From: Kiloniellales bacterium
Lineage (GTDB): Bacteria > Pseudomonadota > Alphaproteobacteria > Kiloniellales > JAKSBE01
Direction: 5' to 3'
Length of the DNA stretch: 64,000 nt
NCBI GenBank assembly: GCA_030066685.1
Contig: JASJBF010000016.1
Coordinates: 1 to 64,000, forward strand
A model generated the notes under the pieces. The model searched no databases. It saw only the letters and a list, made by a program, of their open reading frames with translations, and was not told the origin of the DNA. Positions 29,078 through 32,405 of this stretch are shown piece by piece. The position numbers and the translations under genes were made by a program. Every line of letters begins with the position of its first letter. Position 1 is the first letter of the stretch.

Positions 29078-29295
29078 TCCGCTCGGGCGGCGGCCTGCCC
29101 GGCTTCACGGCGTCGACGGCAGCGCTCCACGAACCGACCGGACGGGGCCGAGATCCGGGTCCCGGGTTTCCATGATCGGCTTGGACGGGACGAAGCCACG
29201 TTTCGCGCCGGCTCGGAACGCTCTTCCCTTGCCGGCCGTTTCCCGGCAAGCATAGCGCCGCAAAGGCTTTGGATTCGCAAGAACTTGGAGGTCCC

Positions 29296-30222
29296 GTGGC
29301 AAGCGCGTCCTCGACGAAAGTCATCCTCGCCGCCCTTGCCGGCAACCTGCTGATCGCGGTGACCAAGTTCACCGCGGCCTGGTTCACCGGCTCCTCGGCG
29401 ATGTTCAGCGAGGCGATCCATTCCTCGGTAGACACGGGCAACCAGGGCCTGCTGCTCTACGGCCTGAAGCGCTCGAAACGGCCGGCGGATGCCCAGCATC
29501 CCTTCGGCCACGGCCAGGAGCTCTACTTCTGGGCCTTCGTGGTGGCGATCCTGATCTTCGGTCTGGGCGCCGGCGTGTCGATCTACGAAGGCGTCGCCAA
29601 GATCCAGCACCCGCACGAAATCACGAATCCGGTCATCAACTACGTCGTGCTCGGCCTGGCGATGGTCTTCGAGGCCGGCGCCTGCTGGGTCGCCTTCAAG
29701 GAGTTCAACCGTCGACGCGGCGCGCTCGGCTTCTTCCAGGCGATCCGCCGCAGCAAGGACCCCGCGATCTTCACCGTGCTGCTCGAGGACTCCGCGGCCA
29801 TGCTCGGGCTGATCGTCGCCATGGCGGCGATCGCGATGGGCCAGGCGCTGGACATGCCGGTCCTGGACGGGGTCGGCTCGGTGGTCATCGGCTGCATCCT
29901 GGCCGCGACCGCGATCTTTCTGATCTGGGAAACCAAGCCGCTCCTGATCGGCGAGGCCGCCGATCCCCAGGTCGAGGCCTCGGTTCGCCAGGTCATCGCC
30001 CGCCAGTCCGGGATTCAGCGCACCAACGAGGTGCTCTCCATGCATCTCGGGCCCGACGACATCCTTCTGAACCTCAGCCTCGACTTCAAGGACAGCGAGG
30101 ATTCCGCCGACGTCGAGCGCGCGATCACCGAGATGGAGGCGCAGATCAAGCGCGCCGAACCGAAGGTGCGCCGGATCTTCATCGAGGCCCAGTCCTGGCG
30201 CGGCCACCAGCGCATGGCCTAG
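29296..30222 (+). CDS. Cation diffusion facilitator (CDF) family transporter
   Basis: CDF proteins export divalent metals in exchange for protons. The predicted 308-residue protein has five or six transmembrane helices, with the first metal-site motif H42-S-S-V-D46 in SEAIHSSVDTGNQ and the second-site motif LLEDSAAMLG. The FGHGQE loop and a C-terminal cytoplasmic domain (from about residue 210) are typical. The GTG at 29296 is favoured because GGAGG lies at 29287-29291; the open frame begins with a TTG at 29269. The metal (Zn, Fe or Co) cannot be read from the sequence. It sits near the copper operon and an SPFH gene. Confidence 0.88.
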   Translation: MASASSTKVILAALAGNLLIAVTKFTAAWFTGSSAMFSEAIHSSVDTGNQGLLLYGLKRSKRPADAQHPFGHGQELYFWAFVVAILIFGLGAGVSIYEGVAKIQHPHEITNPVINYVVLGLAMVFEAGACWVAFKEFNRRRGALGFFQAIRRSKDPAIFTVLLEDSAAMLGLIVAMAAIAMGQALDMPVLDGVGSVVIGCILAATAIFLIWETKPLLIGEAADPQVEASVRQVIARQSGIQRTNEVLSMHLGPDDILLNLSLDFKDSEDSADVERAITEMEAQIKRAEPKVRRIFIEAQSWRGHQRMA

Positions 30223-30595
30223 CGTGGTGGCTTCGACATCCGGCCCGGCTCCGGTGCCGGACTTCGGAGGCCAAATCACACTGAACTCAATAAGATCGGG
30301 CCCCTCTGGCTAGGAGACCCGCGCCTGTGTGCTTCGGAATCAGGGCACCGGGGCCGCTCCCGAGGCAAGCCCATGACGGTCAAGGCGGCTCATAATGAAG
30401 CCAAGTCATAGGGTTAGCCGGCCAAACCCGGTCCCGCTGCGGTTCCCGCCGCCACAAAATCGCCGCCTTTAAACTCACCGGCCGCCGCAATCAGGCAAAA
30501 TCCCCGCCGCATTCCCGCGCTCAACTGGCAGGCAGAGACCTCGGGAGAGCCGTTCCGCAAGGCAACGCAACGAGCAAGGGAGCATCGGGATAGCC
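30223..30595. other. Intergenic region, no gene seen
   Basis: The 373 bp between the CDF gene and the small membrane protein gene contain no convincing ORF. A GGGAG site near 30580 serves the downstream start. I see no clear terminator or operator. Confidence 0.6.
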
Positions 30596-30844
30596 ATGTC
30601 GAGCCAGGACACACAGATCCCAACCACAATCCTGTTTCCCCGCGCCGCGGTCGCGCTCGCGCGAATGAGCGCCGTGACCCTGATGGTCACCTTCGGCCTG
30701 ACGATCATGTTTCTGGCCGCCGCGATCCTGATCTCGCCGGGCGGGATGCGCTCGGCCCTGGCGGTCGCCCCGGTGGCGGCTCAGGAGGCGCCCCAGGACG
30801 AGCACGCGGTCCTGCCGCAGCGCCGCAGCGGATATGACTTCTAG
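30596..30844 (+). CDS. Small single-pass membrane protein upstream of the sortase-like gene
   Basis: An 82-residue protein with no family I recognise. It has one predicted transmembrane helix (about residues 26-47, MSAVTLMVTFGLTIMFLAAA) and a short Ala/Pro-rich tail ending LPQRRSGYDF. The ATG has GGGAG about 15 nt upstream. Its last 11 bp overlap the start of the sortase-like gene, so the two are translated together and the products may interact in the inner membrane. It does not have the sorting-signal layout, because no hydrophobic helix follows the LPQRR sequence. Confidence 0.68.
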   Translation: MSSQDTQIPTTILFPRAAVALARMSAVTLMVTFGLTIMFLAAAILISPGGMRSALAVAPVAAQEAPQDEHAVLPQRRSGYDF

Positions 30845-31454
30845 CAAGACCCGCAGGGCGCGCCGGGGCCTTGCCGTCCTCGGCGCGCTCAGCCTCGCTC
30901 TTCTGGGCCTCGGGGCCTGGCTCTCGGGCGGGACCGGATGGATCTTCGCCAAGACGGGCGTCGCCCATGCCCTGCTCGAGAGCGCCTGGGCGGCCCGCCT
31001 TTCCGAGGGCAGGACTTTCGATCCCTGGCCCGGTGCGGGCATGCATCCGGTCGCCCGCCTCGAGGTGCCGGCCCTGGAGGTCGACCTCATCGTTCTGTCG
31101 GGCGCCTCGGCCCGGACCCTCGCCCTTGGTCCCGGGCATATCGAGGGCACCGTGCCGCCCGGCGAGGCCGGCCACTCCATCCTGACCGGAGATCTCGACC
31201 GCCACTTCGATTTCCTGAAGGACCTGGAACCTGGAACCCTGCTTTGGGTCCAGCGCAGCGACGGCGACTGGCGGCGCTACCGGGTCACGGACGCCGAAGT
31301 CCTCGATTCCCGCGAGGCACAGCTGGCGCCCGGATCCGGCTGGCCGGTCCTGTCGCTGGTTACCGACTGGCCCTTCGGGCCGGCGGAGACCAACTCGCCC
31401 TGGCGCTACGTCGTCACGGCCGAAGCGGTCACCGAGGTCGCCTTGCGCCACTAG
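30834..31454 (+). CDS. Class GN sortase-fold protein lacking catalytic His and Cys (pseudo-sortase)
   Basis: The 206-residue protein has an N-terminal membrane anchor (residues 12-32) and a sortase domain close to the proteobacterial class GN family: VARLEVPALEVDLIVLSGAS, TLALGPGHIEGTVPPGEAGH and WRYVVTAE. In active members the catalytic histidine is in AGHRDTHF and the cysteine in TCYPF, by my recollection of the family. Here these positions read TGDLDRHF (D120) and TDWPF (D178), while the catalytic arginine equivalent R191 remains. The codons are GAT 31191-31193 and GAC 31365-31367. The frame is intact and shows no sign of decay. Transpeptidation is therefore not expected. No VIT/VWA sortase-target gene is nearby. 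Confidence 0.8.
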   Translation: MTSSKTRRARRGLAVLGALSLALLGLGAWLSGGTGWIFAKTGVAHALLESAWAARLSEGRTFDPWPGAGMHPVARLEVPALEVDLIVLSGASARTLALGPGHIEGTVPPGEAGHSILTGDLDRHFDFLKDLEPGTLLWVQRSDGDWRRYRVTDAEVLDSREAQLAPGSGWPVLSLVTDWPFGPAETNSPWRYVVTAEAVTEVALRH

Positions 31455-31567
31455 GGACTCCGAAGACGTCGGTTCTTCTCCTCGGGCTGGCACTTCCTGT
31501 GCTATAGTCCGCTGAATTCAGCGACAAAGAAGAGGGCGCAGACGCCCACAGCGGAGGTAGCCTGAGA

Positions 31568-31879
31568 ATGTGCGAGATCTTTGCCCGGCAGGATCCTGAG
31601 CAATACAAGAACGAGTTGCGCTCGCTGCGCTTGGCCGGCCGCTCGACCAGCATCCGGCTCGAGAGGAAATTCTGGCAGATCCTCGACGAAATCGCCGAAA
31701 GCCAAGACATGACGACTCCGCGTTTCCTCTCCACGCTCTACGACGAGGTGATCGAGATCCACGGCGAGGTCCAGAACTTCGCGTCGCTGCTGCGCGTGAC
31801 CTGCATGATCTACAAGCAGGAAACCGAAGCCGGCAGAATGCCCGAGCTGCCGCCGCAGGCCCTGACCGCGGCGGAGTAG
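31568..31879 (+). CDS. Ribbon-helix-helix domain protein
   Basis: A 103-residue protein with the RHH_4-type pattern RSTSIRLERKFWQILDEIAESQDMTTPRFLSTLYDEV: one beta strand followed by two helices, which pairs with a second copy to contact DNA. The C-terminal part is short and mostly helical. This family is mainly alphaproteobacterial. It is usually annotated as a DNA-binding or arylsulfate-regulatory-like protein, without a proven role. It is 113 bp from the pseudo-sortase gene and no toxin gene is adjacent, so it does not look like an antitoxin. Confidence 0.83.
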   Translation: MCEIFARQDPEQYKNELRSLRLAGRSTSIRLERKFWQILDEIAESQDMTTPRFLSTLYDEVIEIHGEVQNFASLLRVTCMIYKQETEAGRMPELPPQALTAAE

Positions 31880-32009
31880 AACCGGCTTTCGGGCAAACGG
31901 CGGCCCCGGCCATCGCGCGGGTGTAGTAAGGGCTTAACACCACGGCCGTCCCGGGCGGAGTTAGACTGCTTCTAAAGAAGCGGGTGCGCCCGCCGTCGGG
32001 AGGCAGTCC

Positions 32010-32405
32010 ATGGCAAAGGCCATTCATACGATGGTCCGGGTTCTGGACCTGGATCGTTCGATCGACTTCTACGGCAGAGCCTTCGGCCTGGAAGTGGCGG
32101 ACCACTTCGACTTCGACGGTTTCGCGCTGGTCTATCTGCGCAATGCCGAGAACGATTTCGAGATCGAGCTGACCCTCAACAAGGGGCGCGAAGAGCCCTA
32201 TGGCCATGCCGACGGCTACGGCCACCTCGCGGTCTGCGTCGACGACCTGGACGCCGAGCACGACCGTTTGCGCGCGCTCGGCCTCGAACCTCTGGACATC
32301 AAGGAATTCCATCGGGAAGGCGCGCTGATGGCCCGCTTCTTCTTTTTGCAGGACCCCGATGGCTACAAGATCGAGGTGCTGCAAAGGCATGGCCGCTACC
32401 AGTGA
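32010..32405 (+). CDS. gloA: Glyoxalase I-like VOC family protein
   Basis: The 131-residue protein is a vicinal-oxygen-chelate protein with the metal ligands of lactoylglutathione lyase in place. They are H6 (KAIHTMVRV), a Glu in FEIELTLN, a His in GYGHLAVCV and a Glu in GYKIEVLQ. Glyoxalase I converts the methylglyoxal-glutathione hemithioacetal to S-lactoylglutathione. It starts at ATG 32010. The downstream dehydrogenase genes (63 bp away) lie on the same strand. Substrate specificity is assumed from the family, so another VOC reaction is possible. Confidence 0.86.
   Translation: MAKAIHTMVRVLDLDRSIDFYGRAFGLEVADHFDFDGFALVYLRNAENDFEIELTLNKGREEPYGHADGYGHLAVCVDDLDAEHDRLRALGLEPLDIKEFHREGALMARFFFLQDPDGYKIEVLQRHGRYQ

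Follow-up and report, generated by a model that had tools for sequence, protein, structure and literature searches.

Gene organization of the locus

The window, meaning the whole stretch of 64,000 nucleotides that was analysed, comes from a draft genome of the order Kiloniellales (the source genome, G000). It contains two overlapping reading frames, which encode a small membrane protein and a sortase-like protein and lie where the original prediction had placed them (Table 1). There was no Rfam match at gathering score within positions 29900-32100. A scan of positions 30220-31600 revealed no promoter-like site, and the leader of the small gene contains no promoter consensus. The same scan returned a single terminator-like site; it is weak, lies on the minus strand, and is about what shuffled sequences lead one to expect. 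The conservation of the leader across the three genomes of the genus is nearly that of codons 1-52 of the small gene.

Table 1. Features of the small gene/sortase locus in the source genome (positions in the window)
Feature	Position	Strand	Remarks
Leader 5' of the small gene	30520..30595	+	alike in three genomes (7-11 differences per 75-76 positions)
82-aa single-pass membrane protein	30596..30844, stop included	+	probably what remains of the N-terminus of a TIGR03788-type class GN sortase target
Overlap of the two frames, 11 bp	30834..30844	+	identical overlap in G002; ACG replaces the sortase ATG in G001
Sortase-fold protein, 206 aa, descended from class GN sortases; His120 and Cys178 missing	30834..31454, stop included	+	
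TGDLDRHF (relatives commonly [TSGA]GHRDTHF): H120D, R121L, T123R	31185..31208	+	
TDWPF (relatives commonly TC[YW]PF): C178D	31362..31376	+	G002 also without Cys (ADWPA)
Arg191 codon, retained	31404..31406	+	

Genes for an RHH protein, a glyoxalase-like protein, a Tat-signal protein, and a GMC oxidoreductase are located 3' of the sortase in the source genome and likewise in both of its congeners, G001 and G002. Elsewhere in the order, the G031 target-sortase pair has a GMC and a Tat-signal homologue nearby, and the G034 locus carries a GMC homologue. These shared neighbours fit vertical descent at an old locus. On the 5' side the small gene is preceded by a cation efflux gene in G000 (window positions 29269-30222) and, in G001 and G002 (L039, L040), by an opposite-strand protein of subtilase appearance, as judged by eye. 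The difference places a rearrangement breakpoint at most about 370 bases from the small gene. In G001 a protoglobin gene (PF11563, 130.8 bits; L004 1850-2365) is found just 3' of the sortase remnant, before the RHH gene.

A sortase fold without the catalytic histidine and cysteine

The 206-aa protein scores 67.1 bits for Pfam Sortase (PF04203; cut-off 26.6). It also matches the class GN sortase family TIGR03784 over residues 24-196, with 147.4 bits, which is under the curated cut-off of 158.25; the G002 homologue (152.2 bits) is likewise under it. The class GN likeness that had been noticed by eye is thus borne out. An alignment with relatives confirmed aspartates at the positions of both the catalytic His (D120) and the catalytic Cys (D178), with R191 kept. 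In a 73-row phylogeny, the focal protein and its G002 homologue group together (support 100/100) within the order's H/C sortases; the fork linking the two to these sortases had 87/63 and the deeper placing was weak. By predicted fold the 206-aa protein is a sortase, and it descends from class GN sortases.

An AlphaFold2 model based on 42 aligned sequences (mean pLDDT 87.2, pTM 0.77) predicts a sortase fold. Solved structures of sortases designated D, C, A, and E aligned with the model, the best match being 4d70_A (Z 18.4, rmsd 2.8, 149 residues). The fold motifs had been described as well conserved. The fold is indeed predicted with confidence, but W67 and D69 of the family PWPWADT motif, as well as R121 and T123, are changed. 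D122 is invariant in a 15-row alignment.

Neither the focal protein nor the 206-aa G002 homologue contains a single cysteine, so the catalytic Cys has not moved elsewhere, and an alternative His/Cys pair in another part of the fold is ruled out. By inference, the protein would be incapable of thiol transpeptidation by a cysteine of its own, and activity is excluded as far as cysteine chemistry is concerned. A genome search at E 0.001 detected no second Pfam sortase in G000, which makes it unlikely that the protein serves as a decoy or regulator of an active paralogue.

Catalytic residues and targets across the family

Class GN targets are described as encoded by the adjacent gene, forming a dedicated pair with the sortase (PMC3237569), which is not the case in G000. 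TIGR03784 is matched in 35 of the 61 genomes of the order. Out of 37 sortase places 36 were compared (the second fragment of G048 was left out), and a cognate TIGR03788 target was found 5' of the sortase, on the same contig and strand, in 32 of them. The spacing between target and sortase is 47-315 bases in profile coordinates. In two more places the pair is split between contigs, and the only ones without an upstream target are those of G000 and G002.

Wider sampling gave the same picture. Of the 385 genomes in the class sample, 42 have a match to the focal protein; all 39 of those not already met in the order search have a TIGR03788 match (37 above cut-off, 2 cut by contig ends). Of the 397 genomes in the phylum sample, which was limited to a completeness of 90% or more, 42 match, and each of the 39 newly met ones has a target above cut-off.

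The catalytic residues are just as widely retained. Among 75 aligned rows from the order and class samples with letters at both positions (one row duplicates another), the focal protein alone has no His. The Cys is absent from just the focal protein, G002, and G039, the last with Ser in its place. All 41 phylum-sample rows are H/C/R, with genome G417 occurring in both sets. Out of 80 named loci, which were picked by motifs and are hence biased towards intact ones, 78 could be scored: 77 are H/C/R and one is H/D/R (L154, apparently the G002 copy).

Two further deviating loci were encountered. The class GN sortase of G039 (L007, contig C496) reads TSYPF where relatives read TCYPF and has an adjacent target; it comes from a single draft genome with 8% contamination. 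The class GN pair of G357 (L130, L152) looks broken: its target match is in two pieces, and the sortase alignment has a gap after GHRDT and a Cys at the Arg position. In G268 and G434, from the same genus as G357, the sortases are H/C/R and a target scores above cut-off.

A literature search that reached few subscription journals turned up no class GN sortase that is naturally without catalytic activity. The one paper found to use the name class GN sortase calls the role of sortases in Gram-negative bacteria unknown (PMC10581121). In Shewanella oneidensis, deletion of srtA, which may or may not be of class GN, is reported to have left current density without the increase that an involvement of the gene in the biofilm effect would predict (PMC8176591). 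Among solved structures, the Streptococcus pneumoniae SrtC-1 H131D protein (PDB 2wts; Z 17.1 with the model) shares the sortase fold and a His-to-Asp change. However, it is an engineered laboratory mutant of a class C sortase, whose H131 may or may not correspond to position 120 here.

Fate of the sortase within the genus

The genus sample consists of three genomes including G000, all of them drafts. The small membrane protein upstream, as proposed originally, is present in all three. The G002 sortase is 73% identical to the focal protein, with GHRDTHF intact and ADWP at the Cys site (H120/D178). In G001 the sortase is only a broken remnant: its ATG reads ACG, the match spans residues 2-61 only, and no in-frame ATG, GTG, or TTG start yields 40 codons. 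As judged from the sequences, loss of the Cys is common to both intact copies, loss of the His is found in G000 alone, and the G001 gene is lost. The Asp/Asp pair is not fixed in the genus, contrary to the clade envisaged in the original prediction. An orthologue with its His intact is what the original prediction had itself named as a refutation, and for H120D the G002 copy is one; C178D is shared.

No TIGR03788 match was detected on the focal contig, in agreement with the earlier observation that no sortase target lies nearby. Elsewhere in G000 there are five weak, partial matches on other contigs (best E 1.5e-11, profile positions 270-459 of 629). A sorting-signal profile was built from 14 relatives. 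It recovered four control target genomes at E 6e-15 to 7e-20, and its best match in the three congeners was 0.02 or weaker; in two genomes of the order without a class GN sortase match the best values were 0.047 and 0.157. No cognate target, and no other convincing substrate with a class GN sorting signal, was found among the three congeners. An 'LPQ' in the tail of the small protein was considered as a remnant of the sorting motif and dropped, as it is missing from both congeners.

Selection on the sortase lacking catalytic residues

The sortases of G000 and G002 align without stops or gaps across 206 codons. Their dN/dS is 0.42 by NG86 (bootstrap 0.27-0.60), 0.35 by LWL85, and 0.12 by YN00, and neighbouring genes have values of 0.05-0.16 (a value of 2.32 for Tat196 was discarded as it seems to come from a comparison of out-of-register stretches). 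In 2000 neutral simulations the mean identity was 0.617 and the maximum 0.704, so that the observed 0.73 was never reached, and 92% acquired a stop. For the G001 remnant NG86 gives 1.03 (0.63-2.05) and 0.93 (0.50-2.22), with wide intervals; YN00 gives 0.73-0.76 and LWL85 0.62-1.13. Over the same stretch the intact pair has a dN/dS of 0.58 (0.28-1.22), which overlaps the remnant intervals. Active sortases range by NG86 from 0.10-0.12 (genus g18), 0.04-0.06 (g21), and 0.03-0.08 (g24, where calculable) to 0.15-0.58 (g25), and in view of the g25 values a dN/dS of 0.42 alone is no proof of relaxation.

Family-conserved columns were compared with those of active pairs (27 of the 28 g25 pairs, those within an identity filter of 0.6-0.85, and five others). 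The focal pair changed 12 of 52 such columns, against 0-5 of 48-50 in the 32 active pairs. The correlation of conservation with change was rho -0.08 (p 0.24) for the focal pair and -0.27 to -0.54 for the active ones. Half of the 12 changed columns fall in active-site stretches, in which changes are to be expected of any dead copy, and this weakens the case for relaxation. With these stretches masked, the focal pair changed 6 of 37 columns (rho -0.14, p 0.06). The 26 active pairs of this comparison (21 of the 28 g25 pairs and five others) changed 0-4 of 34-36, with rho between -0.24 and -0.51. In both comparisons the active pairs share genomes and are not independent. The dead sortase is no longer constrained at its active site and is under somewhat weaker constraint in the rest of the protein; the focal pair is still the extreme one, by a modest margin. 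The claim that the gene is selected and not decaying holds in so far as coding constraint on the sortase remains, but its conserved columns change more than in active pairs and in G001 the gene is lost.

The residual constraint keeps alive the reading, favoured in the original prediction, of a repurposed pseudoenzyme: a dead sortase retained for a role other than catalysis, in which it would bind, chaperone, or scaffold the small membrane protein. The frame is open in two species with a dN/dS below 1, the fold is predicted to be intact, the overlap of the genes is kept in G000 and G002, and the active-site stretches hold half of the changed conserved columns. Beyond the open and constrained frame, no further positive evidence for a binding or scaffolding module was found. 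Three observations make this reading rather unlikely. The conserved columns outside the active site changed somewhat more than in any of the 26 active pairs. The active site is unlike between the two intact copies. In G001 the sortase is dead and the small gene is as conserved as elsewhere, meaning that the supposed partner needs no sortase.

The small membrane protein as a probable target remnant

The small protein is found in 3 of the 61 genomes of the order, all three of this genus, and is a free-standing protein of 82-88 aa in each. Residues 1-52, comprising an 'ILFPR' segment and the transmembrane (TM) helix that follows it, are strongly conserved and the tail is variable. Over codons 1-52 the dN/dS is 0.06, 0.06, and 0.11 in the three comparisons, G001 included despite its dead sortase. 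This tight conservation of the N-terminus in all three genomes is a surprise and the most interesting part of the locus. The best explanation appears to be that the small protein remains under clear selection for a function that would be independent of the sortase, since it is equally conserved where the sortase is dead.

The protein matches no Pfam or NCBIfam family above cut-off and lacks VIT and VWA domains and an LPxTA signal. Its N-terminus (ILFPR, TM helix) resembles that of the targets of part of the order (VFPPR or IIPPR, TM helix). By hhalign, the small protein matched the target N-termini at 93.6% in the same register. A local repeat of the profile comparison gave 90.1% with a score of 34.4 (84.3% and 31.3 for the focal protein alone); none of 400 region-wise column permutations reached 34.4 (maximum 28.1), and a control helix, the sortase's own N-terminal one, gave 0.4%. 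Eight real targets left out in turn scored 37.8-86.1. The comparison rests on about 44 residues, mostly TM helix. HMMER scores of the three small proteins against the target N-termini were lower: 15.0, 17.3, and 15.4 bits. The focal score of 15.0 was reached by 7 of 3000 region-wise shuffles (9 by best-domain score) and by one segment among 654 controls, which is in fact a G034 target. When targets were omitted one at a time, the score of the focal protein ranged from 8.7 to 18.9 and that of the omitted real target from 17.2 to 85.0.

These results point to the 82-aa protein being probably the N-terminal membrane-anchor remnant of a class GN sortase target. By this reading the small protein is a truncated old target and not a new partner. 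It stands in the place of a TIGR03788 protein and resembles the N-terminal anchor of one, strongly in the profile comparison and moderately with HMMER, and it differs from these proteins in having neither the large body nor the LPxTA sorting signal. Alternatively, it could have no relation to the target and be a membrane protein specific to the genus, which arrived beside the relic sortase. The modest HMMER results, among them the fall to 8.7 bits once target G022 is left out, would be compatible with this, as would the lack of a family assignment and the five g24 targets that by eye have no 'FPPR' segment. We consider such an origin unlikely. The same-register profile score comes close to the range of real targets and beyond that of all permutations, the control helix gave no match, and the protein stands in the target's place directly 5' of the sortase.

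Probable loss of a dedicated sortase/target operon

The likely explanation of the locus, on comparative grounds, is that the two genes are what is left of a class GN operon dedicated to a sortase and its target, and that this operon is being lost. The sortase has kept much of what defines TIGR03784, namely sequence, N-terminal helix, predicted fold, Arg191, and its place behind the other gene in a unit of two, but it scores below the family cut-off and has no catalytic Cys or His and no target. In the ancestor of the genus, the target would have lost its body and LPxTA tail. Transpeptidation would then have become purposeless and Cys178 could be lost, and the sortase would afterwards have been under weaker or shifted constraint. 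In two species it may persist in the periplasm, anchored to the membrane but inactive as a transpeptidase; in the third it would have disappeared. The short anchor protein would have been retained by selection for its sortase-independent role. The distribution of the changes suggests that the target and the Cys were lost in the ancestor and the His or the whole gene later.

Two other readings of the substitutions have little to recommend them. D120, D122, and D178 might form an acidic site, metal-binding or aspartyl-type, that replaced the His/Cys dyad. The substituted positions are indeed the catalytic pair in a fold predicted to be intact, next to the invariant D122, but the sister copy in G002 combines H120 with D178, so there is no conserved acidic pair, and R121, T123, and the WADT motif are altered too; such new chemistry is very improbable. 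A sequencing or assembly error mimicking the lost residues, conceivable in draft assemblies, is scarcely credible given C178D in two separate assemblies, three amino-acid changes in the His region, and an intact frame.

It is tentatively possible that the N-terminal anchors of class GN targets carry a function in their own right, one that can be separated from processing by the sortase. Here it would be free-standing and strongly selected after the loss of the target body, the sorting signal, and the sortase activity, and the dead sortase would be the partner being discarded. A genus apparently caught in the course of losing a class GN system suggests the order in which its parts disappear. 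The one part that is still strongly conserved is what looks like the membrane anchor of the target, and the function of this anchor protein becomes testable in the absence of sortase activity.
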